A stretch of DNA of 64,000 nucleotides from positions 125,417-189,416 of the forward strand of contig JADDTR010000027.1 of NCBI GenBank assembly GCA_015345905.1. Reading direction: 5' to 3'. The number at the start of each line of letters is the position of its first letter. Positions within the stretch are counted from its first letter, which is position 1. A model generated the notes under the pieces. The model was not told the origin of the DNA and searched no databases. It was given only the letters and a program-made list of their open reading frames with translations. Shown here one piece after another: positions 5,389 through 58,478 of this stretch. Origin of the DNA: Aotearoamyces nothofagi. Lineage: Eukaryota > Ascomycota > Leotiomycetes > Leotiales > Tympanidaceae. The translations under genes were made by a program, and so were the position numbers.

Positions 5389-5838
5389 ATGGACGTAAGA
5401 AAGATTGTATATTGATATAGCATTGGTGGCGTTTGGGAAGATAATAGCATGTATATCTAGGGACACTTTGTACAGTTGTCAGACTTAAATGAATAAGCTC
5501 CATGATCATGATCTATATTACAGCTCAACATTTTCGAGCCAAGTCTAGAAGATCCTGATCTTCGATTTCGCATTTGTACAATCTCTCGTTGGTAATAATC
5601 ATCTTTGCGGAGGTTTATGAGATAATAGTTCATGGCACAGGAGGTAGAGAAATATCTTTGTTACATCAGATTCATTGGCATGGTCACTAATGATTACACA
5701 ACCGTAAATTTATATTGCATTTCTGCTCGGCTATGAAAGCTTTCGTACAGATTTTCTTAGACATGAATCTCTTAGCCCTTCGAAAGTGCCTTCATCAAGA
5801 ACTCTTATCTACATAATCCGTAGCTAGCATTCACGGCT
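5389..5838. other. Convergent intergenic spacer, no gene seen
   Basis: This is the 3' spacer between mrpl51 (+) and TPI (-). It is AT-rich and holds no supported ORF. Confidence 0.5.
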
Positions 5839-6882
5839 CTATAGGTTGCTGTTGATGATATCGACGACTGCAATGAACAATTAGCCCAGTTACTTTGACA
5901 TATAAGAACAGCGAAAACTTACAAGCTGGCTTCAAGCTGGCACCTCCAACCAAGAATCCATCAATATCCTTCTGCTTTGCGAGTTCCTTGCAGTTCTTCT
6001 CGGTGACACTTCCACCATAAAGGATTCTGACTGACTCAGCAGTAGCCTCACCAACAGCCTTCTTCAACCATGCGCGGATTGCAGCGTGGACCTCTTGAGC
6101 CTGCTCAGTTGAGGCGACCTTTCCAGTGCCAATAGCCCAGATGGGCTCGTAGGCAATAACAACCTTCTGCCAGTACTCTGGCTTGCCTTCCAAGGCTTTG
6201 GCAACAGCTCCCAATTGGGATGTCACAACTGCGATTGTCTCGCCCTTCTCGCGCTGCTCAAGGGACTCTCCACAGCATAGGATGACGCTAATTCCACCGT
6301 CAAGGGCGGTCTTGGTCTTTGAGGCAACGAAAGCATCATTTTCTTGGAGGATGACACGACGCTCAGAGTGACCGACAAGAGTCCAGGTAACCTTGGAGTC
6401 TTTAAGTTGCTCGACTGAGGTTTCTCCAGTGAAGGCACCGTTGGGCTTGTCGAAGACGTTTTGAGCGCTGACCTCGATCCCCTTTCTCAACTGCTCGCGG
6501 GCGAGGTTTAGGTAGAGAGTAGGTGGGGCAATGACAACCTCTAAAATGAATAACGAATATTAGTTACATGTATACATTATTTGAAGCAGTTGTATAAGCT
6601 GTGGATGATTGTCTGGAGCCCTGAAGCAGCCAAAGAGGGTGCGGAGAGCGAGAATTAAAACGAAGGGGATCGACAATAGAACGTACCGACTTTGGGGTCA
6701 AGCTTTGCTTTGTTTAGATCTCCAATAATCTGCTTGATGGTCTCAGATGAGCCATTCCTGTAGCCTCATGTATCAGTCTTGTGTCTTCTTCTTGCTAGCA
6801 CAAACTGAAGCTACCCCTCATTTGGCCATAGAATAGAAACTTACATCTTGAAGTTACCACCGACGAAGAATTGACGAGCCAT
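5839..6882 (-). CDS. TPI1: Triosephosphate isomerase
   Basis: Four exons: 6882-6845, 6757-6687, 6540-5923 and 5867-5839; 251 aa, the standard length. It interconverts dihydroxyacetone phosphate and glyceraldehyde 3-phosphate in cytosolic glycolysis. Catalytic signatures are visible. FVGGNFKMNG carries the Asn and Lys and is split by intron 1 inside the Met codon. GHSERR carries the catalytic His, AYEPIWAIGTG the catalytic Glu, and ILYGGSV plus DGFLVGGASL the phosphate-binding loops. The last exon is only 29 nt and encodes VDIINSNL plus stop. Without it, read-through of the intron gives a false tail. Confidence 0.98.
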
Positions 6883-26647: not shown

Positions 26648-27899
26648 TTACCTCCCTCCAGGAAAAGGAAGGGACCAATCCCAATCTGGGCCGCAAATAC
26701 ACCGATCCACGCCCTTCGTCCCATTCGCCCTCCGCACGCTTTTCGTGCCTATAACCTTGGGGATATCAAAGGCCCTGGCGCCCATCCTGGGCACGCACTG
26801 GCTCCAAAACTCCATCCTCATCACCCTCTCGACATACGAGACCGGGATGGCCCATCTGTAATGCGTGTTGTCGGGCGGTGGCACGCCGCGCATGTCGCGC
26901 TGGCGTGTTGGGTGATATACAGACCATTGCCAGGTGTCGCTTTGCTCGACCACGAGGCCCATGGGCGGGCGCCACTCGGGCCGCATGTCGTGGGGCATGT
27001 CGAAGATGATGCCGCCGAACATGGCCTTCTCCATAGACCAGCCGACCTCTTCCAGAGGCTCGTCGCCGAACACTATGCGCGTGAGCGGAAAGAGGGCGTC
27101 GGATGGGGGGCGCCTCAAGACATACCTGGTTCTGCGCTTGTGGGATCGCCCATCTCGATGGGGTACATGTCCCAGACGAGGGCGTGCTGGGCAGGTGATT
27201 CTTCAGCTCGATTCCTCATATGAGATTCCTAGCGACGGGACTTACGGTGAGTTCATGAAGGATCTGGATCAAGTCAGCACCCGCGCACTCCCTTCGGCCG
27301 ACGCGCACGCAGACACGGAGGACTTACGGTAGTAGCAATATAAAACTGGCCCATGAGCTTCTGCGATTCGCGGATGAGATTCGGGATGTCGAGCAGCGCC
27401 TCGAGGTTCTGCCACGCCAGCGTAATCACCGTGGCCTCCCCATCGTTCTGCGTGAGCCCGACGAAGCTTTCGGGGGCCGTCCAGCCCGTGACGGGGTTGG
27501 GCATCGTCACATCGCCCGTATCGATATTCCACTGCAGGTTCGGCGCCAGATCGCGCAGGCAATCGTCGAGGGACATTCTCGGCGTCGCGGGTAGCGGGGG
27601 GCCCAGCTTGGGGTATGCATCTGCGGGGGTGCCGCCGAGAGGGGTCTCGCTGGTCCATTCTCCGTTCAGGAACGTGTCCCACCTAGATAGCCGCTGGCTG
27701 TTTAGGATCTGGGTTCCGGATACCAAGATGTGCTACGCGGATCTCAGATCCGCGGTTTGGAAAAGGGGGGGGGGGGGGGGGGGGGGGGNNNNNNNNNNNN
27801 NNNNNNNNNNNNNNNNNNNNNNNNNNNNNNNNNNNNNNNNNNNNNNNNNNNNNNNNNNNNNNNNNNNNNNNNNNNNNNNNNNNNNNNNCCCCCCCCCCC

Positions 27900-31815: not shown

Positions 31816-34800
31816 TTAGACCTTCTCCCTTGCTACCCGTTGCTCCTTTGCGCCCTTCCTTGCCTTCGAACTGAACGCCTTTCCGATCTTTTTTGTGCCC
31901 CCCAAGTAAAGCCAGCTGCACACAAATACAACCGTGAAGTTAAAGAAAACATATGCCCAGAATATTCCATAATCCCTCCAGATATGAGTATAAAAGACGT
32001 TAAAGGAGGCTGCAAATTCATCGCCGTTGGCATATTGACAGAATTCGCACATCCCATTGGCACCGGTCTGAACATACCCTCCAACCTGTGCAATGAACGG
32101 ATCTGTGTATGAAGAACACGTCTCACCTGGTGGAGGGCTAAATCGCGCCAACTCACTCTCTGCGCATACAACGGGGACCCCGTGGGTGACAGCGGCGAGT
32201 AGGCCTTCGAGAAAGTAATGGAACGGGGTGAGATAATACATCCATGATTTCCAGAAGTGGGGAAGTCCAGCATAAGGCACCACGACCCCACAGAAAGAAA
32301 CAACAAAGATGAAGAAGAATGGGACAAAGAGTGAGGCAAGGAGCTCATTGGGGGAGAAGGATGCGATGGCTTGGCCGAATCCGACATAGAAGAGCTCGAA
32401 AACGGATATCATTAGGAAGGCATATCCGGCCGTAAAGCCTGTCGGAAAGCCAACGCCCCAATACCTAGTTGACTGTCAGTATCTCATCGAGCAGAAGACA
32501 GGGAGGATCCTACCAGCAGTTGAAATAGACAGCACCTGCAACAAATGAGTACGGGATCTCAGGCAAAACTGTGCCAATGACAAATGGAAACCAGCCATAT
32601 ATCTTTGAATTTGATTCTCGGGACTTGTAAACCCGTCGAAAGTGGATATACCGGGGTTGGAGCTGCTGTATAAGTGGCGGCGAGATAGTAAGTGTCATAA
32701 ATATTGAGAACAGTCGAGATTGCATGTCAATGGACGAGTGTCCAATTTTCCAGAACGTGAAGGTGTTGAATAAACCTGTGACGATATGGAGGGCGTATTT
32801 CCCTGTGGTGCTGTTAGCATACATCTCTCAAGGAAAGCGGAGGTGGAGTACTTACCAATCATATACTCGGGGGTTCGCCAATAGGCTACGAAGCAGCGCT
32901 TGACCACCGCAAGAATCTGTGTACTAAGAGGCATAGCAAACTCGCGATCATCCTTAATAGCACTATTTTTACCTGTCGCCTTGCGTCGTTCCTCCAACAT
33001 TTTCTGAATCTCATCTGTTCTCTCCTTCGCATCCTTAGACTTCTCCCATATGTTGCCCCAATCAGCACCATTATAGTTTGGATCTCCGGCACCAATGCAT
33101 TCCAACATATATTCTGCTGGATTCATGACTTTTGGACACTTCTTGGCACCATTGTTCTCAAAATAGTTAATTAATTGGCGACTATCCTTGCCCAGAGGAC
33201 CGTGGAAAACAATGCGGCCGCCAGATTTGAGAAGTAGGAGCTCGTCAAATTCTTCAAATAGAACAGCAGAAGGTTGGTGTATCGTACAGAGAATTGCTTG
33301 GCCTGCATCAGCTAGCTTGCGAAGAAATCGGACGATGTTATAAGCAGCTTGACTATCAAGTCCAGAAGTCTAAGGGGAGCATCTATTAATTGCTGAAAAT
33401 TGTCTTTAGGGGAGATAGACACTTACTGGTTCATCTAAAAACAGTAGTAGCTCGGGCTTTGAGGACAACTCGACACCAATGGTAACTCGTTTCCTCTGCT
33501 CCTGATTAAGCCCACTACCAACAGATCCTATGGTGGCTCCTGCGATATCTTTCATTTCCAAAAGATTTATAATTCGCTCGACATATTCGTATTTTTCTTC
33601 AATGGGAACTTCCTTAGGCTGGCGTAGAAGAGCCGAAAACCTGAATGCCTCTCTTACAGTTGCCGTCGGCTCATGGATGTCCATTTGCTCTGAATAGCTT
33701 GTTAGTAATGGATAGGCTACTCCACGTTAAATTTAGCTGCTCACCTGCAAACCCAGTTGATCTCTGGAAGGACTTTGGCAACGGTTTGCCATCGACAAGA
33801 AAATCACCAGTAATAACACCAAAATTGACTCTCTGTGCCAGTGTATTCAACAGTGTCGTTTTTCCAGCTCCAGAAGCACCCATGAGTGCTGTCAGTTGAC
33901 CAGGCCTAACGTAACCATTGACGTCCTTCAGAAGCTGTCTCTGGCCACCTTGGTATGGGATGGTGTAATTAACATTCTGGAAGGTGAAAACTGTCTCGTT
34001 GGAAGCTACACCCTTGGTGGTTCCATCCTCGCTTTCCGATGCATTGACTTCATTCTCCTTGGTGATTGTAGTAGCGGTGCTAGCTTTGCCCTTGTTATTC
34101 TCTTCATCCTGAGGAATATCGCCAACCTCGATAGCCTCTGTGATTGCCTTGGGAGCCTGGCCCCGTTTGAACACAGTGACTGCACCGCCACCGGCGTTCG
34201 GCTTCTGAAATTCCATGCCAACCGCAGTAATAGCAACAAAAAAAAGCCAAAATCCTATGATAATGCCGACGTTACGCCAAAGATGTGCCCTAGTATAGGT
34301 GTATGCTGTCATGATGTAGTCCGCTCCAGACACTACTATCTGACCTGGCTGAGACCCTTGGATTGTACAGGACTGGTATTGAGCAGAGGCCCCTGACACG
34401 TCAGGAACAAGCATTGGGGGGACACATTCGATCTTGAGGTTATAGAACTCATTGGACATGAGAGCTTCAAACCCGTATTGGACCGGATTTATCCACCGGA
34501 GCCATGATAACCATGGATGCATCTTCTTTGGGGGAATCAGATAGCCAGTATAAGTGATTAGGGCTTGAATTGCAACACCGGTAAATCGAGTGGCTACGTC
34601 CAAGCTACCAGACCAAGCCCCGATAGCTCTAAAAAAGCTATACATTGACAGAGTAAGGATGAATAGTATGAGAAGCGAGATGAAGAATTGACTAGCTGTT
34701 CTTTGAAGATGCGACATCCAGTAGACAATGACATCGAAAATGAATACCTGGACGGCGACCAATGGTAAATCCGTAACGACTTGAGCAATGGCGTAGGCCG

Positions 34801-36817
34801 AGGGTCTATAGAAGGAGAAACTCTTGTGTTTGAGCAAGATTGGTCGAGAGGTAAATGCTGCTGTGAGCTCTGCTAGGGCAAGCAGTGCGTTGAACAATAG
34901 CATGAAAAAAAGTACGCCGCCCCTTTCAAAGACACCCGCAGAAGTCTGCGGCATATTGTAGAACAGAGATCCCACTACTAGCCCTTGAAATACCTAATTT
35001 GAGTCAGAATTAGCTTTACTAGAAGTTGAAAACCCTTTCTATGCTTACCATGCCACCCCATTTTCCATACAATGACTGCTTATCGCCAAGCATGACCAAA
35101 AATTGACGTTGGGTACAAGCGAGTACCTGTTGGTGAAACGATAAGGTGTAATTCTTCTTCTGCGTAGCCCCAGTAGTTGCCGCCTGTCTCTCTCGTATCT
35201 GCCCCTCAATATGTGTCTCAAAATCTGCAATATCGCGCCTGTTCTTTTCAGCAATCTCACTCTTATGATAAGCCGCCTCGAATTGCTCTGCTGATCGGGG
35301 AATTCTGTCCTCCCAGCCCTTCTTGACTCGGCGTTCGTGCTGATCGGTTACCGACGTCAGGAAATCGGCGGTAGTCCATCTGGGAGGGCGTTCGAACCCG
35401 AGACCTTCGAAGTAGGCAGCGGCATCATCTGATGAGCCATAGTAACAGCATCTTCCTTCTTCGATAACGATGACTTTGTCAAATGCCTTATATAAGCTTT
35501 CCCCGGCCTGGTAAAGTGCGACAGCGGTAGATATTTTTGCCATGTTTGTCAAACTGCGGATGCTGTTCACATATTCGAGGGCAGTAGAGGCATCGAGACC
35601 TTTTGTAGAGTTATCCCACATTTGCGTCGAAGCCTTGGTGATCATGGCTTCTGCGATGCTGACCCGCTTGCGTTCACCTCCAGAGACACCTCGAACATTT
35701 TCATCACCGACATAGGTCTTTAGGGTGTGGGATATCCAAAACAGTTGCGTCACAGTCTTGAGGAATTCTTGGACATATTGCTGTCGGGTCTCCCCTTCTA
35801 GTCTGGATTCTTTTCCCGGGGTTCTAGTCTTGAGAGCAAATTCAAGGGTCCTTTGAACACTCAGGGTTGCATAATGGAGATCATCTTCAGGATTGTAGAG
35901 AACTTCACCCCGAAATTCTTTTGCCATAGTCTGAGCAGTGGCACCACCGTAGGTGACCGTTCCATCAATACTTTTGAACCCAGCTCTTTGGTTACCGAGA
36001 ACCTTCAGGAAGGTTGAGCATCCAGATCCCGGACGACCGAGGACTAGAAGCATTTCTCCAGGACGGATAGCGCCAGTGAAGTCATTGATGATTGTTCGAA
36101 CTGGGGGCCCTCTGCCAAGTCTCTTATTCCTCCTAAACAGAGATCCAATCTTCCTGGGCAGACCCAAGAAAATATCACCAACTGTAGGTTGTAGCGCAGC
36201 CCCGAGACCAACACCTTTGACTGTAAGATTCTTGAAAATAACACCGACATGTCTAGTCTTCTCTTCTTCCGAGTTATTCTGTCTTCCTTGGCCAAACATC
36301 CGCGACATCAGACGCTCAATTTCGACTTGTTCTTCATCATACAGTGGATCAGAGGCTGCACTGGCATCTGTTCGGCGTTTTGAAAGTACTTTGAAGAGGT
36401 CTTCTTGGGTAATATGGCCCGTGGATGACCTCTTAGGCATGCCAGGTCTGTGGTGGCTGGATGATTCATGCGTTGCAATTGATGCGAATTGCCTCCTAGG
36501 CCCTTCTTCATCATCTTCTGTATCCTCGTTGCCATCACCGGCTAGTGGAGAGGAAGTGCTCGCTGCGGAATCATGTGCTTTCTCATGCAGGACTGACGCA
36601 GGAATAGTGGCCCCCGTTACGCTATCCTGAGAATCGCCTGGTGGCATGGTGTTCACCTGAGGTGTTTGTTGTGTATAGGATTGGCCTCTAGTCGGCTCTG
36701 CTGGAGTTTCTAGCCAGGCGCCTAGTAATGTCTGGTCAGTGCTATCTCTCTTACTTCTTGTACTCTTGCTTGTGTGGTACCTGGTGCTTTCTCAATGTCA
36801 GGCGTTGAGGACGCCAT
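31816..36817 (-). CDS. PDR-type (ABCG) full-size multidrug ABC transporter
   Basis: Seven exons: 36817-36781, 36721-35049, 34993-33745, 33689-33427, 33369-32856, 32802-32514 and 32464-31816; 1557 aa in NBD-TMD-NBD-TMD order. The start is a 37-nt first exon ([12 protein letters not shown]). NBD1 has Walker [10 protein letters not shown] (Cys for Lys, normal in this family), signature VSGGERKR and [14 protein letters not shown]2 has Walker [10 protein letters not shown], a degenerate signature LNQEQRKR, and LFLDEPTSGLDS split by an intron after DEP. PDR motifs YYLTPFHYF and [10 protein letters not shown] occur in the second TMD, and the extracellular loop before the last helix is Cys-rich. Predicted plasma-membrane efflux of drugs, azoles or plant compounds; the substrate is unknown. 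Confidence 0.96.
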
Positions 36818-40665: not shown

Positions 40666-41839
40666 GAACAATGATCTCTCATGGGTTATTGAGGAATTAA
40701 CTATGGCATGATACAAGTACGCAGTAAGCCTATGATGGCATTCGTCAAGGTCTTTTCACACGTTTTCATCACACACACAGACGGTATCATCTCTTCGCCC
40801 GAGTCATTTCCGTTTATTTTTACACCACGTTTTTCACATGCGCATTTAAGTATACGGCGAAAAAGCCGATGCATAATGGTCTGTGACGGGCGATATCTCC
40901 CGTGAAATGTATGGTGGCTGTGAGAACGGATGCGGGGATCTCTCTAGATTGTGCTGATCTTCCATTCAACCCTTGTTAAAGCCGCTAGAAATGAGAAGTT
41001 CCTGTCATCTGGCAAGCCACTTCGCCTGCCCCCTTGCGGCTGTATATCCAAATCCAACGCTATCGCCGGTATCTAAACGGCCACGTGGTTATTCATATAC
41101 GGCGAATGCGGGGAAGACCTCGATAAGAATCGATATTTAAGCATTTAAGGATTTTAAGGATTTTAAAGATTTTAAAGATTGCTGTCGGGAGCCGGAGAGT
41201 TCTCACGGAGTCGTTTTCTGCGGCCGGAAGAACTACGTTCCCGCTGCCCCACTGCGGGGCAAACGGAGGCAGGTGCCAGAATTGGTAAGAGGCGTTGTTG
41301 TCTTTTTCACGAACGGCGCATCTTGAACCCTTTGCCCTTAAAGGCGCGTTTTACAGTTCAATGCAACCATCTCGTGTATCCTCGATTGCCTGTTTTGGCG
41401 CTCACCGCTTGTCAGTAGGTCTTTCTTAGTTTTCTTTTTCATTCCTTGGCTTGAGCACATGCTGTCGTAATATAGCGAGAGTTCTGTCAAAGATGCCGAG
41501 GAAGGTCAGGTAGGTACTCCGCATTTACTGTTGAGCATCTAGAGCAAGCAACTGTTTGAAACTATTATATAGAGCGTGATGAGTACTCGTACGGTAGGTG
41601 ACTCTTCTAAACATGCCACCACGCGAGGCCTGGCCAAGTAGCTACTTAGCGTACCAAATTCCACTCAACGGGTGCTTAATTAAGGCCACTTGACATTTTT
41701 ATAATTTTGTTGGGATTAGATATCACGGAGAGAAGTTATCTCCAGACTGGACTTGAGTAGACATATTTGTTTGCGAGTCCCCGAGGAACTTCTAATATAT
41801 TTCTATATAAGCGTTTTTGTTTCCAAGTCAAGAGTTATC
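40666..41839. other. Intergenic spacer, no gene seen
   Basis: 1.17 kb upstream of the carboxylesterase. It has 10-bp units GATTTTAAAG/GATTTTAAGG at 41148-41178. No supported ORF. Confidence 0.45.
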
Positions 41840-43537
41840 ATGCATCCCATCAGTCTTGTCATCAGTCTTGGCATCAGCTTCCTGCCGCTGGCACTTGCTG
41901 CACCAACAGTTGACAAGAGAAGCGCGACCCCAACAGTTGACCTCTCCTATGCCACAGTAGTTGGCTCTCGCTCCTTGGGTGTCGACTCGTTCAAGGGAAT
42001 TCCATACGCACAACCCCCTGTGGGAGAACTTCGACTGAAGCCACCGCAGTCCATCACATCGAGCTTAGGAACTATTAAAGCGACAGGAGTACCGAGAGCT
42101 TGCCCTCAATTTTATGTCGAGGCAGACACTTCGGCTCTTGGCGATGCCGCCCTTGGAGTGCTTTTGGACACTCCTCTTTTTCAAACTGTAACCGATGCTG
42201 GCGAAGATTGTTTGACTATCAACGTGCAGCGACCGGCAACGGCGACATCATCTTCAAAACTCCCAGTCCTATTTTGGATTTTCGGTGGTGGCTTCGAACT
42301 GGGATCCACGCAGTTCTATGATGGTAGCGAGTTGGTCCTTAAATCTATCACTCAGGGAAAAAGCATTATTTTCGTGGCTGTCAATTATCGGGTCGGGGGG
42401 TTTGGTTTCCTGCCCGGGAAAGAAATTCTTGCAGATGGATCCTCTAATTTGGGACTGCTAGATCAGAGATTGGGTCTTCAGTGGGTGGCTGACAACATCG
42501 AAGCTTTTGGGGGCGATCCCACCAAGGTAACAATCTGGGGGGAATCCGCTGGTGCAATTTCCGTTTTTGACCAAATGGCGCTATATGATGGAGACTACAC
42601 ATATAATGGTAGTCCTCTCTTCAGAGCCGCTATTATGGACAGCGGCAGTATTGCTCCAACCGATGCCGTGGACTGCGCGAAATCAGAAGTTGTGTATAAT
42701 ACCGTGGTCGAAAATGCTGGCTGCTCCGAAGCCAATGACACGCTGGCATGCCTCAGGACCGTTGACTATACAACCTATCTTAACGCCGCCAATTCCGTTC
42801 CAGCACTCCTTTCATATACTTCAGTAGCGTTATCCTATCTTCCACGACCAGACGGTACGGTCTTGACGGCCTCTCCCGAACTCCTTGTCGAGAATGGACT
42901 GTACGCCAAGGTACCCTTTATCATCGGTGACCAGGAAGACGAAGGGACTCTCTTATCACTCTTCCAAACAAACATTACAACTAGTGCCCTCCTAGTCGAG
43001 TACTTAAGTACCGTCTTCTTCAACGACGCAACAACAGCCCAGATCGAAGGCCTAGTCGCAACCTACTCCGATGTTGCATCTGCTGGCTCTCCTTTCCGCA
43101 CCGGCTCCCTCAACAACTTCTACCCAGAATTCAAGCGCCTCGCTGCCATTATCGGCGACCTAACCTTCACACTCACTCGCCGCCTTTTCTTGAATCTCGC
43201 CAACACCGCCAACCCCTCAGTGCCTAGCTGGTCCTACTTGAATTCCTTCAGCTACGGTACCCCTATTCTCGGCACGTTTCACGGCGAAAACATCCTGACT
43301 GATTTTGGCTACACCCTTGGCGTAACTCAAGCGTCGTACCAGGCTTACGTTCTCTCATTCGTGAATACCATGAATCCTAACACGGGCACGTCGATCTTGT
43401 TGCCGAAGTGGCCGCAATGGAGCACGGCCAAAAATCTGTTGTGGTTCGAGACATTGTCGAACTCGATCCTGGCAGATACGTTCAGGAGTACGAGCTATGA
43501 GTATCTTGCGGCGAATAGTGCGGATTTGCATATTTGA
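41840..43537 (+). CDS. Secreted type-B carboxylesterase/lipase (Candida rugosa lipase-like)
   Basis: Single exon, 565 aa. I start at [21 protein letters not shown], which is a clear signal peptide. A Lys-Arg (VDKR) just after it may be a Kex2 site. Family blocks are [30 protein letters not shown], the oxyanion-hole region [11 protein letters not shown], the nucleophile elbow [11 protein letters not shown] and the catalytic His in GTFHGENI. Expected disulfide cysteines are present (CPQF/CLTI and CAKS/CSEA). The length matches fungal CRL-type lipases and sterol esterases. An upstream in-frame extension to 41753 lacks an ATG and is not used. Confidence 0.94.
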
Positions 43538-45494: not shown

Positions 45495-46033
45495 GGTGAG
45501 AATGTCTGGTAGTGAGGCCGGTGATGGGCGCGGGGAAGTGGTGTGGTAAGACGGAATGGCGTGTGGATAAATAGAAAACAGAACAGGATCCAGTATTCAA
45601 TAATGTGGGAGAATGAATTCCATCATTTCACTTTGTAGAATTGCATTCGCGCGGAGGAGCTGCTGGTGCTCCGTGATATCAAGCGGGCTTCCGTGTCTAG
45701 CCGGCTACAATGAATTGTTGGTGTTCCCCATTACCCATATCGCGCTCCGTCCCGTCCTCCGCTTCCGTGCCCACTCTATTAACATCTCCGCGCGCGTCCC
45801 GCTGACCACATACCGTGCTGATGGCGGGAGAGCAGTGAATGCCCGGGGTTAGATGATGTCTGGAGAGGAGGGAAACGGCGCGTGTGAGATATATTATGTT
45901 CAGCTGGCCGGTGTCGTTGATAACTTTAATTTACTCGTCTTTACACTTCACGCAGCCTCTCGCCACTGTTCTCAGAAAGTCCCATCTTATCACGATTGAT
46001 CCACTGCCGGAAGTCCTTGTCACTCCAAGTACA
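45495..46033. promoter_or_regulatory. Shared promoter region of kynureninase and indoleamine 2,3-dioxygenase
   Basis: 539 bp between divergent starts of two kynurenine-pathway genes, so co-regulation is likely (inference). An in-frame extension of the IDO frame reaches back to 45884 but begins without ATG and reads like leader sequence. No operator is called. Confidence 0.6.
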
Positions 46034-47405
46034 ATGGTTGCAAGCACCGCTCTTGTCCTGGAAGACTACAGTGTCTCTAGTAAGAACGGCTTCTTGCCTG
46101 CCGAGTTACCACTTCAGACATTACCAGATGCGTACTATGGCAGCTGGGAAGCCATCATGTCGCGGTTGCCCATGCTCCTCCGAGACGGCCATCTCAGAGG
46201 TGAGATAGATAAGTTACATGTACTTTCCACAGCAAGATTACAATCGGAGAGGGAATGGCAGCGAGCATACTCAATACTCGGATTCATGGCACATTCATAT
46301 ATCTGGGGAGGAGACAGGCCTTCGGAAGTGAGTCTAGAATCTCTATGGACAAGAGACAGCACTGACGCCCAGGAGACCTTGCCAGCTGCGGTATCAGTTC
46401 CGTTTCTGGAGATAGCTTCTCACTTGGATCTGCCACCAACGGCGACGTATGCGGGACTCAACTTGTGGAACTACGCCCCCATTTGCGCAGATGCGCCGCT
46501 GTCAACGCCAGATAATCTCCGATCACTGCACACCTTCACTGGCAGCAGGGATGAAGAATGGTTCTTCATCATATCGGTGGCCATGGAGGCGCGCTGTGCA
46601 GCGATCATCCCCATCATGCTCAAAGCCATGGACGCTGCAGGCATGAATGATTCCCAGAAGGTGCAAGAGTGCCTGCTGGCCTTTGCAGGGTGTGCTGTTG
46701 ATCTCGGGAACCTTCTGGAGAGGATGTACGAGGAGTGCGATCCGTACGTCTTCTACTACCACATCCGACCGTTCCTAGCCGGAAGCAAGAACATGTCTGT
46801 CGCCGGTCTCCCGAACGGCGTCTTCTACGACGAGGGGGACGGGGCGGGCCGGTGGCGGCAGTATAGCGGCGGCAGCAACGCGCAGAGCTCTCTCATACAG
46901 TTCCTAGACGCGGTGCTGGGCGTCGAACATGAAGCCACCGGGGACCAGAAAGATGCCAAGGGACCCAGAGCAAAGGGCGGGTTCCTCCACGTAAGCACCC
47001 CCCGTCACAGCCCCCGAATGCTCTCTCTCTCTCTCTCTAACACCACAGTAGGAGATGCGGAGCTACATGCCAGGCCCCCACAGCCGCTTCCTCCAGCACG
47101 TCAGCGCCGCCGCCAACATCCGCGGCTACGTCGCAAGCCACGCATGCGACCGCGACCTCCACGCCGCCTTCAACGGCGCCGTCGCCACGCTCGCTGGCTT
47201 CCGCGACAAGCACATCCGGCTCGTCACGAGATACGTCGTGCAGCCGGCGCGCGCGCCGCCGCCGCCGCAGCAGCAGCAGCAGAGGAGCGTGAATCTTGCC
47301 ACGCGGGCGCCCGGCCTGTACGGCACGGGCGGGACGCAGCTGATCCCCTTCCTGAGCCGGACGAGGGACGAGACGCGCGATGCGGCGGTCTCTCCCACGG
47401 GGTAG
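46034..47405 (+). CDS. BNA2: Indoleamine 2,3-dioxygenase
   Basis: Two exons: 46034-46990 and 47052-47405; 436 aa. It is a heme enzyme opening the indole ring of tryptophan to N-formylkynurenine. Blocks seen: YSILGFMAHSYIWGG, LPAAVSVPFLEIASHLDLPP, RDEEWFFIISVAMEAR, FYYHIRPFLAG and YSGGSNAQSSLIQFLDAVLGVEH. The proximal-His region is SYMPGPHSRFLQHV, at the start of exon 2. The tail is RGYVASHACDRDLHAAFNGAVATLAGFRDKHI. A PPPPQQQQQ insert lies near the C-terminus, a low-complexity loop. Intron 1 is 61 nt with a CT-repeat tract. Start MVASTALVLEDYSVS. Confidence 0.95.
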
Positions 47406-47885
47406 GCGTGGCCGTCCTGTCCTGGCGGGGTTCGGGATGCTGGATCGGGCGCGGGGCGTGGGAGCCTGAGCGTGGATATTGACCTCGATTGCTGCTTATT
47501 CTCGTAGAATAGAGTAGAGTAGGCTGGCTGGCTGGCCTAGAGTACGTTATAGAATCTATAATATCGTGCAGACGAGAGCTAGATGTATATTATAAGAGCA
47601 GGAGGAGAAAAGCTCCATGGGCACTGACGGACCGGGATCTAAACCTGCGAGAAACTTCGTTGCCATGGTACAGTACATTAGCGCGCAGGAGGATAGTCGA
47701 TATATGTGCTGTGAGATTAAATGCAGTTCTAGTAGTAAGGCTGTTGCAGCCCAGTTGTGCGATATTAATATTTACGATCTATACGTATATGTCGACCTCT
47801 AAAACCCAAGGCCGATTACCAATCCAATTCTACACGCCGGATCCCATCCCGATCAACGCACGGATATGGCACCCCCCTTTTATAA
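47406..47885. other. Convergent spacer between IDO and the alpha/beta hydrolase
   Basis: 480 bp of 3' flanks. No gene supported. Confidence 0.5.
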
Positions 47886-49166
47886 TTATACAGGCATCGA
47901 TTTACTCGCGCTCTCAATCGCGTCGACATCATGGCTCCTACGGCTGCTCTCCTCCAACGCATCATAGACATTGGTATCCTCAAACCTGTCGACATTGAAG
48001 CTGTGATCCAGCTGTCGTAGGCGCTCTATACTCTCCTTGCGTCCGAATATCGCGTTGAGCTCGGCGCAGGCTTCGGAATAGCAGCGGTCTGCCGCTTTGG
48101 GGAAGTGGATGGGATTGGGCTTCTTGTCAAAGGCGTGGGGGACGCCGTGGATTAGGCCGCCTTTCACGGTTTTGCCGATGGCGGGTGATTTGAGGCGCTC
48201 GCCGAATGCGACGCCTTCGGCATTGAGCATGTCGAGTTCGCAGGTGTAGAGGATGATGGTATCGGGGTATGACTCGCGAAGGGTAGCGTCCGGAGCGGCG
48301 GCGGGCGAGAGATAGGGATCTGAAAAGTCAAGAGGGCAGGTTGTCTTTCCTCTTGTTATGTACGCATTGTCAAAGAGGTTGGTCAATAATGTAGGGAGGT
48401 TCTTTTCGGGACGCGGATTCGTGGCTCGTTTGTCGGCGCGAGGTATGCGGAAGTCTGTCGGGGGATAGAAGGAGATGATGGCTGAGATTTTGAGGTCTGG
48501 TATTTCGTGGGCGATTTCGAGGATTGTCGGGGCCAATGGCTTTATGGGGAGATGGAGTGAACTTGTGCTTTTGGTGGGAGTTATGGCAGATAGATTCGTT
48601 CTGCTGCTCGTGCTCGTACTGCTTAAAGTCGGTCTAATCTTGTGGTGCTTGTCTGGTCGTAATGTCCGTCTTCCTGCTTCGGTCTGGAGGTCGTGCAGCA
48701 TTAAAGGCACTGTCAGTGCAAAGTTACCTCCTGCTGAAAAGCCACTCAGAGCAATCCGATGCGGATCGATGTGTAGTTCATCTGCGTGTGCAGCAATATA
48801 TATCACAGCGTCTGTGCCGTCTTCTACTCCGGTGCTAAACGGGTACTTGGGGGCAAGCCGATACTCGACACTGACGAGTATCGCATGAGCATTCTCCATG
48901 ACCGCCCTGGCCCAGCGCGCGTCGTCAGTGCCGGTACCCAGAGTGAAGCCTCCTCCATGGTAATTGATGACGACGGGGTACAGCTTGTCGTTGGACGCAT
49001 CAAAGTAGCCCTCGGGCACGTAAAAGACGAGCTTGAAATGGCCGCCGACGGTCGACAACCTTGAAGGCACCTTGACCGTGAAGGCTGGAGACGGAGGCTG
49101 GGGGGACGCAAAATGATGGATGCGCATCCCAATGGCCATCAGGCCACGCCATACAACCGCCTTCAT
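47886..49166 (-). CDS. Alpha/beta hydrolase, HSL/steryl-ester-hydrolase type; candidate ErdH
   Basis: One exon, 426 aa from the ATG at 49166 (MKAVVWRGLMAIGMRIHHF). The open frame continues 27 codons upstream without ATG, directly after a TTAG acceptor-like site, so an upstream exon is possible. The HSL signature INYHGGGFTLGTGTDD is followed by SVEYRLAPKYPF and the nucleophile GFSAGGNFAL. The acid is probably in TCELDML and the His in IHGVPHAFD. A Ser/Thr-rich insert (SSTSTSSRTNLS) separates core and cap. Family members hydrolyse small or steryl esters. The gene is the divergent neighbour of ErdS. Sterol-aspartate hydrolysis (ErdH role) is inferred from fold and position only. Confidence 0.82.
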   Translation of the reverse strand: MKAVVWRGLMAIGMRIHHFASPQPPSPAFTVKVPSRLSTVGGHFKLVFYVPEGYFDASNDKLYPVVINYHGGGFTLGTGTDDARWARAVMENAHAILVSVEYRLAPKYPFSTGVEDGTDAVIYIAAHADELHIDPHRIALSGFSAGGNFALTVPLMLHDLQTEAGRRTLRPDKHHKIRPTLSSTSTSSRTNLSAITPTKSTSSLHLPIKPLAPTILEIAHEIPDLKISAIISFYPPTDFRIPRADKRATNPRPEKNLPTLLTNLFDNAYITRGKTTCPLDFSDPYLSPAAAPDATLRESYPDTIILYTCELDMLNAEGVAFGERLKSPAIGKTVKGGLIHGVPHAFDKKPNPIHFPKAADRCYSEACAELNAIFGRKESIERLRQLDHSFNVDRFEDTNVYDALEESSRRSHDVDAIESASKSMPV

Positions 49167-51010
49167 CAGGCTGGAAGTGGTGTTGGTTGGATGCGGGGGA
49201 CAGTGGTGAGGTTCGTCGGGCAGAAGGGTTGAGGGTACAGCATCCACCTAACACGATGGAGAATAGTCATGATGCAAGAATGACGGCGCCTGAGGGCCAG
49301 GACACAGCGGCCCTAGGGGAGCAGCAAGGACTGACATAAGAACTGACATAAGAACTGACATAAGAACTGGCACCAGAACTGGCCGTGGCATGCCAAGAGA
49401 GAGCGCGGGTAGGGAGGGGAGATGGTACGACCGGCAGGGCTGAGCACGGTGCTTGGTGAGGGAGAGGGCGCGGAAAACGTGATCAGCATGAATTGGCGGA
49501 CGGCATGGCATCATGGGCAAAGGTGTGCGGCGCTGCTGCTACTATTGTCGCTATCACTGTCATGTTCACTGCCATGTTCACTGTACTGCATATCACTGCC
49601 ACTGCCACTGCCACTGCCACTGCACGGTCACCGCTGGCAGCTACTGTATCTATCTGTCTGCACTGCACTGCAGGCACTCGGGCGTCTGTGTTCTCTTATC
49701 TCCGTGAGGCATTGCGGGACCCACGGAAATGCCTAGAAGCTGCTCACTCACGCAGCATGATGCATGCTGCATCCTGTGATACGGCCGCTGCTCACTCCCG
49801 TCTATCCACGCAGAACTCGCAGCGCCAGACACGCTGTGGAGGATATGTCAGCAGCAGCAGCGAGCATGATGCCACGGCTGCCGGGCTGGGACTTGCGGGC
49901 TGACGTCATGGCGTGCTTGGATTCAGCAGGGCCAAGCATGCTGTAGTGGCCGGGGATGGAGGTGCTGGACCGGCTGGCTGTACAGATATACAGTCCAGGC
50001 ACTGTAGAGTCTCTGCGTGGCTGCTCGCCACAGCGTGAGTGCTCGGCCCCTCAGGCCCGCCCGGGTTGGTTTAAGCATTTGGCAGCGCTGGAGCAGCCGT
50101 CGCTAGGGCTGGCCTGGGCTGTAGAGTAGAGGGGCACCACGGGCGCACATGTGTAGCGACAGCGGGCTCGGGCCCGTGGGTTTGCAGGCCCGCAACTGCA
50201 CTGCTGCGTCTATAATATATCTATATTATCTATATTTTCTATATTATCTATATTTTCTATATTATCTATATGATCTATATCATATATTATCGTGCTCTCT
50301 ATATTATACCGTGTACAAGTTCTGTCAACTCCGGAAGAGCCTCCGCCCGGGCTCCGCGGCGTCGCCACGCTTGAGTCACTCGCCCTCCCCACCACGCGCC
50401 GCCTCCCTCCCGCAGGCTGCATCGCCACGGCATCTTCGGGCTTTCTCGTCTGTCTTCCCGCCACATAGCTCGTCCTGCTTACTGCAACAAGCAACAGACG
50501 CCTCCCAATTCACATAAGCTTCTGCAGCGTCTTCTAGTTCCCATGTGCCTTCTTGCTACGCCGCCGTGTACTGGCCCAGAGCCTACAGTGCGGCCAACCA
50601 GTCCCCCGGGTGTCCGGCAATCCAGCAATCGAGATGCAGGAGGACCCTGGGCGCCTCGGCCGGCCGTGTCAGGACCCTCCCAGCTCTTCCCAGCCCTCCC
50701 GATGACCTTGCCTGTTAAAAATCTTGCTAATTGTTGACATCATCCCTTAATAGGGAGCGTGGGAAGGCTCACCTCGTCCCCTCTGCACTCTCGCTGAGCT
50801 TTGAGCACTGTGCAGCTTTTTTGTAGCGTACCTCTTCAGCCGCTGTAGTGTCCTGCGTCGCCCGTCTGACAAGATTGTTGGCCGTGTAGGAGTCGTACAA
50901 GTACAGTCCGGACTGCTGTTCGAGTGCTGGCACCTTAAATGTGTGGCACCGGCGTCGACAAATCCCCAACTCCCGCCAACAACGACAAGCACAACAAGCG
51001 CATCAGCAAG
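49167..51010. repeat. Repeat-rich intergenic region between the hydrolase and ErdS
   Basis: 1.8 kb between divergent genes. It contains GACATAAGAACT units at 49330-49385, CACTGC/TGCCAC units at 49540-49625, a TCTATATTATCTATATTT array at 50214-50300, and GC-rich unique DNA elsewhere. Open frames here are low-complexity. Promoters of both genes must lie at the ends. The stretch 50939-51010 is in frame with ErdS and starts at an ATG (MCGTGVDK), a possible N-terminal extension. Confidence 0.6.
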
Positions 51011-54000
51011 ATGCCATTCAACATTCTCAAGAAGCCTTTCGAGAAGCTGAAGTATCCCATTAGTTCCTCCTCCTCACAATCAAGTCAGAGTACTGCCAAT
51101 GGTGACAGCAAGAGCAACCCTCTTTATCGGGACCCCGATGAGATTGCAGAGGAGCGGAGGAGGAAGAGTGAGGACAAACTGAGGAAGAGGGCCCATAGTA
51201 GGGACCGCTTGCATAAAGCAAAGAGGAAGGATGAGGAGTTTCTGGAAGTTGGTCCAGAGGAACTGACCAGCCTCTACAAGCCTCTCAGCATGAATATGAG
51301 CAAACGAAGAGAACACCCCGAAAGGCTCCTCTTCAAGGAAGTGGATTTGGAGGGTCAGTGCTCAATCCTACTGCATGGCAGACTATCGTCTAGCTGCTAA
51401 TTTTGTGATGCGCAGATATGGTTGATGAAATAGTTGAATTCAGAGCTCGGGTTCACACCCTTCGTCCTTTAAGCTCCAAGCTGGCCTTCCTTGTTCTGCG
51501 ACAACAAACCATCACGATACAGGCAGTCCTTCAAAGTAACTCTACAGAGAATGGAGAAGTGCCAGGTACGTAGTTGCTTGATGTGCCCCAGCATGGTTCA
51601 ATTTTGACTCAAACCCTCACTAGACACGACCATTCCACGGGACCCTCAAGCACCAATTGTGTCGGAATACATGGTACGGTCTGTGGAGCGTTACCCGGTA
51701 GAATCTGTCGTTTTGGTCAAGGGTAAAATTCGCAGACCTCCTCAGAAAATCAAGAATGCGACGGTTCATAATGCCGAGGTTGAAATTTTTGAGATACATC
51801 TTGTCTCTCATCTCACCGAACACGTCCCATTCAGCGTGTATGATGCCGAGAATATCGTCAGGTTAAAAAAGGAACGAGAAGATGAGGAGGAAGGAAAATC
51901 AGACGAAGAAGACTCCGTGCGTTCACCACGTTCATCAGTGGCTCTTGATCAGAACGGCAACAGCAGTAGCAGTCCTCCTAATAGCCGAAGTAAGCAATTC
52001 ATCTTCTAATGCAGCAACTGAGACATTAACAATCTTGCTAGAAAGTCTCCAAAGTAACAGAAACCCACGCACTCTCCCACAATCATACCGTCTAAACAAT
52101 CGGATCGTCGATCTTAGAACTGCAAGTTCACAGTCAATATTTCGCATCCAATCTGGTGTATGCAACATGTTTAGATCTTATCTAGATGATCGTGGCTTCA
52201 TTGAGATTCATACCCCAAAGCTACAGGGCGCCGCAACGGAATCTGGAGCATCGGTCTTTGAAGTCAAGTATTTCGGAAGACAGGCATTCCTTGCACAATC
52301 TCCTCAACTAGCCAAGCAAATGTGTATATCGGCCGACTTTGGCAGAGTCTACGAGATTGGAGCGGTATTTCGTGCCGAGGATAGCAATACCCCACGCCAT
52401 ATGACCGAATATACTGGTCTTGATATTGAAATGGCGATAGACGAGCATTATCATGAGGCGTTAGAGATGATCGATGGCATGTTCAAGAACCTCTGGAAGG
52501 GACTCTATGAACGCTATGGAAAAGAGATAGATATCATTTCTCAGTATTACCCTCATGAGAAGGTTCTATGGCTGGAGAAGACCCCAAGAATTCCGTTCTA
52601 CAAGGGAGTTGAATTGCTCATAGAAGATGGATGGAAAGACGACGAGGGTAATCCTCCGTCTCAGTTCGAAGATTTGGCAACAAGAGCAGAGATCAGACTG
52701 GGCCAGATTGTCAGGGAAAAGTATAAGACGGACTACTACATCTTGGATAAATTTCCGGCTTCAGCAAGGCCCTTCTACACAATGCCGGATCCGAATAACG
52801 ACAAATTCACGAATTCCTTTGACATCTTCATGAGAGGGCAGGAGATCTTATCCGGAGGTCAACGTATTCATGATGCAAAGTTCCTGGAGCAACGCATGAG
52901 AAAGGTTGGAGTCGATCCTGACAGCATGGAAGAATACATGGAAGGATTCCGATGGGGCGTACCGCCACACGCTGGTGCAGGTATTGGATTGGAACGGCTG
53001 GTTTACTTGTTCTTGAATCTTGGAAACATCCGTCTTGCATCCCTCTTCCCACGGGACCCGAAATCTCTGCCAGAGAAGCCTCCTACCTGCATTCTTCGAC
53101 ATCCTGAAGCTAGCACAACCAATCCTCCTTGGCATAGCAGAGACTTTGACGATTACGATCCCAACCGCAAAGAGCTACAACCTCTGACGAAACTGATCGC
53201 AAACTACGGTGATGCAGCCAACACATCCTGGCTCGACGACCGATACGAAGTATGGCGCCATGGCTCAACTGGTGCCGCTCAAGGCTTCGTAGCCTTCCAC
53301 GGCTTCGCTATTACCGTCGGTGAGCCTCTCTGCGCCAGATCCCAATATCCTCAAGTCATCTCCGCATACCTCGAGTACATCAAGGGCGAGCGCAAAGATC
53401 TCAAACCGATCTGGCTGATCTGCAACGCGGAGGTTGAAGAATACCTCGGCGAGAAATTTAACTGGCGCACGCTCTCCGTAGCCGCCGAAAACCGCGTCGA
53501 CCCCAAAAGCAACCCGGCATTCAAAGACCACGACGTGACTCGCAAGATCCGCCATGCGGAGAAAGAAGGCGTCAAGTTGATTGACATGCCAGCCGATGAA
53601 CCGATTCCAGAAGAATTCAAGAAACGCGTCGATGCGCGGATCCAAGATTGGCAGAAAAACCGAAAGGGTACCCAAGTCCATCTCACGGAGCTCAGGCCTT
53701 GGGTCGACGAAGAGCATCGTCGTTATTTCTACGCCGCACAAGACAATAAGGATGGCACCATCCACGCCATCTGTGTCCTTCACCAACTGAGTCGCGAACA
53801 CGGCTATCAAATGAAATTCACCCTCGAATTCCCCTCGGCGCCATCCGGCACCATCGAAGCACTATCCCTACACGCCATGACGGCCATGACGGTGATTGAT
53901 CCTGCATGTAAAAGTATAACCTTCGGTACCGGCGCGTCGCCAGAATTTGTGGGCGGGAGAAACCTCGGGAGACATAAGGTCATAGCACTGAAGAAGAGCT

Positions 54001-54167
54001 ACGAGACCATTAATCGCAGCTTGCGTCTGACAAACAAGAGCGAGTTTAGAGCGAAGCTGGGCGCGAGCAGCGAGAGGGCTTATGTGGCGTACCCGAGAGG
54101 CGGGCTTGGGGCACTCGGTATCAGAGCGATCTTGGGATTCTTGGAGCAAAATAATTCAGGGGCGTGA
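51011..54167 (+). CDS. ERDS: Ergosteryl-aspartate synthase: aspartyl-tRNA synthetase fused to DUF2156
   Basis: Four exons: 51011-51353, 51416-51565, 51624-51989 and 52042-54167; 994 aa. Residues of about 1-115 are a charged extension. About 120-270 are the OB-fold anticodon-binding domain (FRARVHTLRPLSSKLAFLVLRQQ). About 290-625 are the class IIb catalytic core: YRLNNRIVDLRT, motif 1 near IEIHTPKLQGAATESGAS, motif 2 FRAEDSNTPRHMTEY (about 395) and motif 3 GAGIGLERL (about 598). A normal AspRS ends soon after motif 3. This protein continues about 370 residues as a DUF2156 (GNAT-like aminoacyl-tRNA transferase) domain, with YEVWRHGSTGAAQGFVAFHG, RWKI-like NWRTLSVAAE, and GTIEALSLHAMTAM to FGTGASPEFVGGRN. 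That fusion is the published signature of ErdS, which makes Asp-tRNA and transfers Asp to the ergosterol 3-beta hydroxyl. Confidence 0.94.
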
Positions 54168-55448
54168 GATGGGAAGACAGAGAGTGGATGGAGTAAAGTC
54201 GAGATTCAATTTGGCAATTGGAGAACTGGGGATGAGTAAGCATGCACGAGGTGCTTTTTTTTTGGGGGGGGGGATGGAGAGGAGAGCTCTTAATACGATT
54301 TATTTTCCTGATACATTTTCTTCTTTTTGATACCCATAGCGGGGGTTTGACGAGATTTTTTATTTTTATATCTATATCTATATATTCACAGCTTGGAACT
54401 CGATGGGACTTTATTCTGCCCTGCTTTGCCCTGCTCTTGATTTATGGTATGGATGAGTGGGCGAGTGCACGGATGCGAAGGCATTCGGGGAACGGATTGG
54501 CGGGAAAGGAAAGTGCCTGTTTGTTGTATGTGAAAATGCCTGCAGTATGAAAATGCCTGCTGTATGAAAATGCCTGTTTATGAAGACGACTACAGTACAA
54601 GATGCCTGCAGTATGAAGATGCCTGTTGTATGAAAATGCCTGTTTATGAAGACGACTACAGTACAAGATGTCTACAGTACAAGATGTCTATTGTATGAAA
54701 ATGCCTGTTGTATGAAAATGCCTGTCGTATGAAGATGCCTATTGTATGAAAATGCCTGTCGTATGAAAATGACTACAGTACAAGATGTCTATTGTATGAA
54801 AATGCCTGTTGTATGAAAGTGCCTGTTTGTTGTTTATGAAAGTGCCTGTCGTACGAAAATGCCTGTTTATGAAGACGACTGCAGTACGGAAATGCCTGTT
54901 GTATGAAAATGCCTGTCGTATGAAAATGCCTGTTGTATGAAAATGCCTGTCGTATGAAAATGCCTGTTGTATGAAAATGTCTGCAGTACGAAGAGGACTA
55001 CAGTACAAGATGCCTATTTGTAAAATGCCTGTCGTACGAAAATGCCTGCAGTGGTACAGTACAGTACAGTGCATGAAAACGACCACCCACCTCGCCAGCC
55101 AGCCCAGCCAGCCCAGCCCAGCCTAGTGAATCGATCTGGCCTATTCTGTTCTGGCCTATTCCGTTCCGTTTCATTGGCTGGTGCTGGATGGGATGGGATG
55201 GGTTGGCAGTCGGGCAGGATGGGACGAGAGATATATATATCAACACAAAATCAACACAATTACGCATCTGGTACCAGATTCTGCTTTTCGGGGGGGAGAG
55301 AGAGAAAAATTTCCACATTCTCTTTTTTTTGTCTACCCAGACAGTATACTATACTACTATCCGAGATGGCTAAGTCTGGTTAGCGAGGATAGCTCTCTCT
55401 CCTCCTCCTTCACCTCCCTTCCCTCCCCTCCCCTCCCCTCCACCGCAA
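54168..55448. other. Convergent spacer between ErdS and acetoacetyl-CoA synthetase
   Basis: 1.28 kb with no supported gene. It holds a T9-G10 run near 54256-54274, the minisatellite listed separately, CCAGCCCAG units at 55095-55125, GGGATGGGAT units near 55187-55200, and CCCCTCCCCT units at about 55420-55440. Confidence 0.55.
54528..55060. repeat. 17-bp minisatellite (GTATGAAAATGCCTGTY) with higher-order units
   Basis: The core unit GTATGAAAATGCCTGTT alternates with the same unit ending in C. It is near-perfect at 54898-54990. Elsewhere it is interleaved with a longer unit containing GAAGACGACTACAGTACAAG. About 530 bp in total. The translated frames are periodic but not conserved proteins. 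Confidence 0.9.

Positions 55449-58478
<3,030 letters not shown>

Follow-up and report, generated by a model that had tools for sequence, protein, structure and literature searches.

Closest described systems

The study of tRNA-dependent lipid modification in eukaryotes is still young. One of the enzymes involved, ergosteryl-3beta-O-L-aspartate synthase (ErdS), was reportedly described by Yakobov in 2020. ErdH is the hydrolase that removes the aspartate from ergosteryl-aspartate, an activity for which database names are the support here. In this work we describe a gene of Aotearoamyces nothofagi that very probably encodes a bifunctional ErdS, with a candidate ErdH encoded beside it. The gene, erdS, occupies positions 51011-54167 on the forward strand of a 64,000-nucleotide window (the whole stretch of DNA that was analysed, to which all positions refer unless a contig is named). 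The window is C27:125417-189416 (contig JADDTR010000027.1) of a 25.5-Mb genome in 55 contigs. Judged from its sequence, the gene is an orthologue of ErdS, and as such an ordinary, well-kept member of a kind already known.

According to excerpts of the literature, to which all citations in this text refer, ErdS (summarised as ergosteryl-3beta-O-L-aspartate synthase in PMC9437257) charges tRNA-Asp and moves the aspartate onto ergosterol (PMC9437257, PMC10449517, PMC10580965). From this literature on orthologues we infer the activity, substrate and product of the protein described here, as well as the ErdH role of its neighbour. The aspartyl-tRNA synthetase (AspRS) half would charge tRNA-Asp with aspartate; the DUF2156 half, which has the fold of MprF and the aminoacyl-phosphatidylglycerol (aminoacyl-PG) synthases and is predicted to be an aminoacyl-tRNA transferase, would pass this tRNA-bound aspartate on to ergosterol, at its 3beta-hydroxyl; and ErdH would remove it again, giving the locus both an on and an off step.

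The locus shares with ErdS an AspRS followed by DUF2156 on one polypeptide, with both halves conserved, and the differences (sequence divergence, a variable N-terminus and an acidic linker) are not categorical. The same architecture was reported in 2014 for the Aspergillus niger AsxRS 55404-mRNA, which carries a C-terminal DUF2156; the excerpt presents it as a synthetase that also has a domain of unknown function (PMC4301749). LysX, the mycobacterial LysRS-MprF fusion (PMC9437257), likewise joins a synthetase to a lipid aminoacyl-transferase but uses lysine and glycerolipids, and its profile has the matching synthetase part at the C-terminal end (positions 758-1096 of 1102), whereas here the synthetase comes first. 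That order is not found in our protein, which scores 58.8 bits against the LysX profile PRK02983 (cut-off 742), with the synthetase part alone matched. ErgS, the ergosteryl-3beta-O-glycine synthase, is also a fungal sterol-acting aminoacyl-tRNA transferase, but it takes Gly-tRNA from an independent glycyl-tRNA synthetase (PMC10449517) and is not fused; the DUF2156 described here is fused to AspRS and is therefore not free-standing.

Gene model and domain architecture

A preliminary description of the locus had placed a protein of 994 amino acids at 51011-54167, and our search of splice models reproduces that length and the stop exactly. Combinations of GT-AG introns were tried across the three gaps separating the open frames, and four models stay open up to the stop ending at 54167. 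The model that starts at 51011 has three introns, of 62, 58 and 52 bases (51354-51415, 51566-51623 and 51990-52041), and coding exons at 51011-51353, 51416-51565, 51624-51989 and 52042-54167, and is backed by its translation and by homologues. A longer model from an in-frame ATG at 50939 was set aside because many homologues share the beginning at 51011 (e.g., MSFLKKP..KL), and another with a third intron of 25 bases was rejected, since this was judged too short for an intron. The third intron sits within a linker of varying length among homologues. A degenerate tandem array lies at 54531-55048, about 360 bases beyond the stop codon of erdS, and consists of about 31 copies of a 17-base unit (TGAAAATGCCTGTTGTA).

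The predicted protein contains a class II AspRS core at residues 301-625 (52083-53057; tRNA-synt_2, PF00152, expectation value (E) 8e-76; genome-level match C27:177499-178473), followed by PF09924, formerly DUF2156, at residues 679-902 (53217-53888; E 8e-9; score 35.4 bits, cut-off 27.5). By alignment, the region homologous to the transferase of the solved chain 9w9f runs on to residue 988. The OB-fold, or anticodon-binding, region at residues 121-218 (51433-51784) is split by the second intron and aligns with solved AspRS chains. Two features of this region tell against our identification: its match to PF01336 (E 4e-4, 20.6 bits) stays below the cut-off of 27, and it departs from all of the 22 homologues aligned at two invariant residues, with D for G at 118 and A for G at 151. 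The three parts that a domain search had been expected to return were thus recovered as far as the synthetase and the transferase are concerned, while the OB-fold fell short of the Pfam cut-off. Because a single open exon (52042-54167) encodes both the synthetase core and the transferase, and both PF00152 and PF09924 are present in 119 of the 120 listed homologues (P0062 has only PF00152), the fusion is no annotation accident.

A solved structure of the fused architecture is already available, since the Protein Data Bank (PDB) chains 9w9e, 9w9f and 9w9g (862-947 amino acids) match both halves. They score 927-945 bits over residues 297-988 and align with the OB region in a second segment; they are also the only PDB matches at E <= 0.1 when the C-terminal 353 residues are used as the query. 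The next PDB chains, e.g., yeast 1asy, cover only the OB region and the synthetase core. The three chains share the two-part architecture of our protein; they differ in their deposited name, "Aspartate--tRNA ligase, cytoplasmic", which covers the AspRS role only. The proposed order of AspRS and then DUF2156 is therefore borne out both by the Pfam domain search and by the alignment of 9w9f over both halves.

In a structure model of the exon, the predicted transferase half matches the fold of the aminoacyl-PG synthases L-PGS (4v36) and A-PGS (4v34/4v35) and of MprF, with 11-16% identity. MprF and the aminoacyl-PG synthases act on a glycerolipid acceptor and have no fused synthetase. The model is weak in parts (mean predicted local distance difference test score (pLDDT) 72, predicted template modelling score 0.48, pLDDT below 50 at positions 51-130 of the modelled exon), and our use of it is therefore limited to the two fold assignments. 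The chains 9w9e, 9w9f and 9w9g were not among the 50 fold-search rows listed by either program, whose library content with respect to them was unchecked.

Homologues and conservation

Likeness to ErdS was judged against the homologues that bear this name in the databases, together with 9w9f over both halves. Four of the 120 listed homologues are named ergosteryl-3beta-O-L-aspartate synthase; they have both domains and are 54-69% identical to our protein in the transferase part. The remaining named ones are mostly called aspartyl-tRNA synthetase or ligase, or hypothetical protein. The earlier warning that a routine annotation would miss the lipid-modifying half was thus largely right, yet it does not apply to these four. 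Among the matches listed, the best named homologues in the C-terminal part come from Diplocarpon, Chlorociboria and Clarireedia (about 60-66% identity), which we take to be leotiomycetes, with Dothideomycetes, Orbilia and powdery mildews, classes again as we presume them, at 54-57%.

In the alignment with the 22 homologues, the AspRS half keeps 151 of 153 near-invariant positions and the DUF2156 half 97 of 98. Together with the PF00152 match, this agrees with the intact synthetase core described before. On these residues and the PF09924 match, the DUF2156 domain, whose absence, or whose decay in the only cytosolic AspRS, had been named as grounds for giving up the proposal, is neither missing nor degenerate. 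The identification as ErdS is therefore upheld by similarity over both halves, the fold match of the transferase and conservation.

A short basic N-terminus (51011-51055) is seen again in ErdS homologues but not in the stand-alone AspRS described below. The net charge of residues 2-15 is positive in all 22 ErdS proteins of a set comprising 21 homologues and our own (P0058 was excluded because its N-terminus looks different), compared with -3 in the stand-alone AspRS. In the same set the helical moment of residues 2-15 exceeds 95% of shuffles in nine proteins, which is a weak test, and our ErdS (0.067) is not among them. Contact of this basic N-terminus with a membrane is possible, with weak backing from the helical moment.

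The neighbouring hydrolase

Upstream of erdS and head-to-head with it lies a divergent single-exon gene for an alpha/beta hydrolase (47886-49166, reverse strand; Abhydrolase_3, PF07859, E 3.5e-36), the candidate erdH. Its open frame reaches 49247, but the first ATG comes only at 49166; two of the eight printed homologues start exactly there, and the others carry extensions. HGGG is found in all 22 aligned hydrolases, as are the Asp and His of the last two motifs, and GFSAGG in 21 (GFSAGA in the other); we take these motifs to have catalytic roles. No close second copy was found in the genome, the next place having 33% identity over residues 11-180. The 1844 bases between the two start codons (49167-51010) presumably hold the promoters of both genes. 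The candidate erdH adjoins a gene for indoleamine 2,3-dioxygenase (45857-47479, forward strand, E 6e-111).

The neighbour most likely encodes ErdH, the putative remover of the aspartate. Its relatives were taken as the best 120 of 3613 matches, among 7998 candidates scored, and eight of these 120 are named "putative ergosteryl-3beta-O-L-aspartate hydrolase". We also used the exact size of the longest contig as a proxy for linkage, comparing the 120 listed ErdS homologues with the 120 listed hydrolases. A contig size is shared in 25 of the 120 ErdS cases, 18 of them on contigs of up to about 121 kb and seven on contigs of 0.95-5.7 Mb. Each of ten offset controls produced 0-3 matches, and a single one of all these was above 8 kb. 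The contigs of 46 ErdS homologues are shorter than 8 kb, and 23 of the 74 longer ones were matched. Moreover, Chlorociboria aeruginascens carries the two genes under consecutive tags, B7494_g7854 (ErdS) and B7494_g7855 (hydrolase). With 25 shared sizes against 0-3 in the controls, erdS and the hydrolase gene appear to be linked in related fungi, and this apparent linkage offers a way to tell a true ErdH from the many similar esterases.

Several observations pull in the other direction. The name acetyl esterase/lipase is carried by 29 of the 120 best listed relatives of the hydrolase, more than the eight ErdH names, and the latter are automatic. A shared contig size is a proxy for linkage only, and 95 of the 120 listed ErdS homologues have no partner among the listed hydrolases. 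The neighbour could then be a general esterase that stands beside erdS by chance, which we consider rather unlikely in view of the excess of shared contig sizes over the controls and of the consecutive tags in Chlorociboria. If the neighbour is indeed ErdH, one may speculate, tentatively, that the two genes form a conserved erdS-erdH cassette, here divergent from a shared 1.8-kb region, and that the basic N-terminus of ErdS holds the enzyme at a membrane; since the genes would be linked and divergent from a shared region, the addition of aspartate to the sterol and its removal might be co-regulated.

Separate AspRS and function of the fusion protein

The preliminary description suggested looking for a second, stand-alone AspRS, a supporting rather than a defining trait of an ErdS, and the genome has one, so that the fusion protein is not its only AspRS. 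PF00152 matches ten places in the genome, a number that includes exons belonging to one gene, and the closest genomic relative of ErdS, on contig C26, is 41% identical to it over residues 46-630. In-frame stops inside the match are consistent with introns. With two GT-AG introns, 16 models are possible in which the gene reads through from ATG to stop and encodes 546-574 amino acids, placing it at about C26:206080-207903 with the stop directly past the AspRS C-terminus. The best NCBIfam match of its two largest pieces is aspS_nondisc, which scores below the cut-off because the pieces were searched apart. A PF09924 profile search of the whole genome matches at one place only, erdS, so the C26 AspRS has no detectable transferase domain.

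The same whole-genome profile search detected no free-standing ErgS as a second PF09924 gene, and no second transferase half was found in the genome with the 994-residue ErdS as the query; both searches reach poorly to a diverged or intron-split gene, and the absence is not proven.

The predicted protein might aspartylate lipids in a tRNA-dependent manner with another sterol or lipid, rather than ergosterol, as its main acceptor, since the wider DUF2156/MprF family varies in the lipid and the amino acid used (PMC10580965, excerpt), but the high similarity of both halves to the ErdS group and the adjoining candidate ErdH make this very improbable. Least credible of all is that the protein is a normal cytosolic AspRS serving translation, its C-terminal extension being inert; although the AspRS half is better conserved (identities with the 22 homologues of 60-81%, compared with 54-67% in the DUF2156 half) and the two NCBIfam matches of the protein above cut-off are both aspartate--tRNA(Asn) ligase models, the near-invariant positions retained in the transferase half are not expected of an inert domain and the genome has its separate AspRS.

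The gain from an ErdS orthologue is modest, since its biology is already established. The present analysis adds a separate AspRS, an intact transferase, relatives with solved structures, the lack of a detected ErgS and the candidate ErdH neighbour. With few listed public relatives named ErdS, a clean ErdS next to a candidate ErdH, in a genome with a separate AspRS, would make a compact pair for study.

Other features of the window

No tRNA genes were found in the window. Downstream of erdS, the stretch at 55732-56107 is made up of a single N and then about 375 bases of C, with one G every 31 bases or so; it adjoins runs of A and G and is probably an assembly or gap-closing artefact. Beyond it, on the reverse strand, is a gene for an AMP-binding enzyme in at least two pieces (56122-57980), whose frame seems to stop just before the poly-C stretch, at what may be a splice donor. 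Exactly 100 N in a row, presumably a scaffold gap, lie at 27789-27888 within stretches that read as open frames on both strands.

On the forward strand there are also a carboxylesterase frame (41720-43534) and a partial match to cytochrome P450 (39366-40421). The reverse strand carries a PDR/CDR-type ABC transporter gene in pieces (33674-36791; ABC_tran, ABC2_membrane and PDR_CDR) and two housekeeping genes, those for triosephosphate isomerase (5834-6559) and MDM10 (105-1241).
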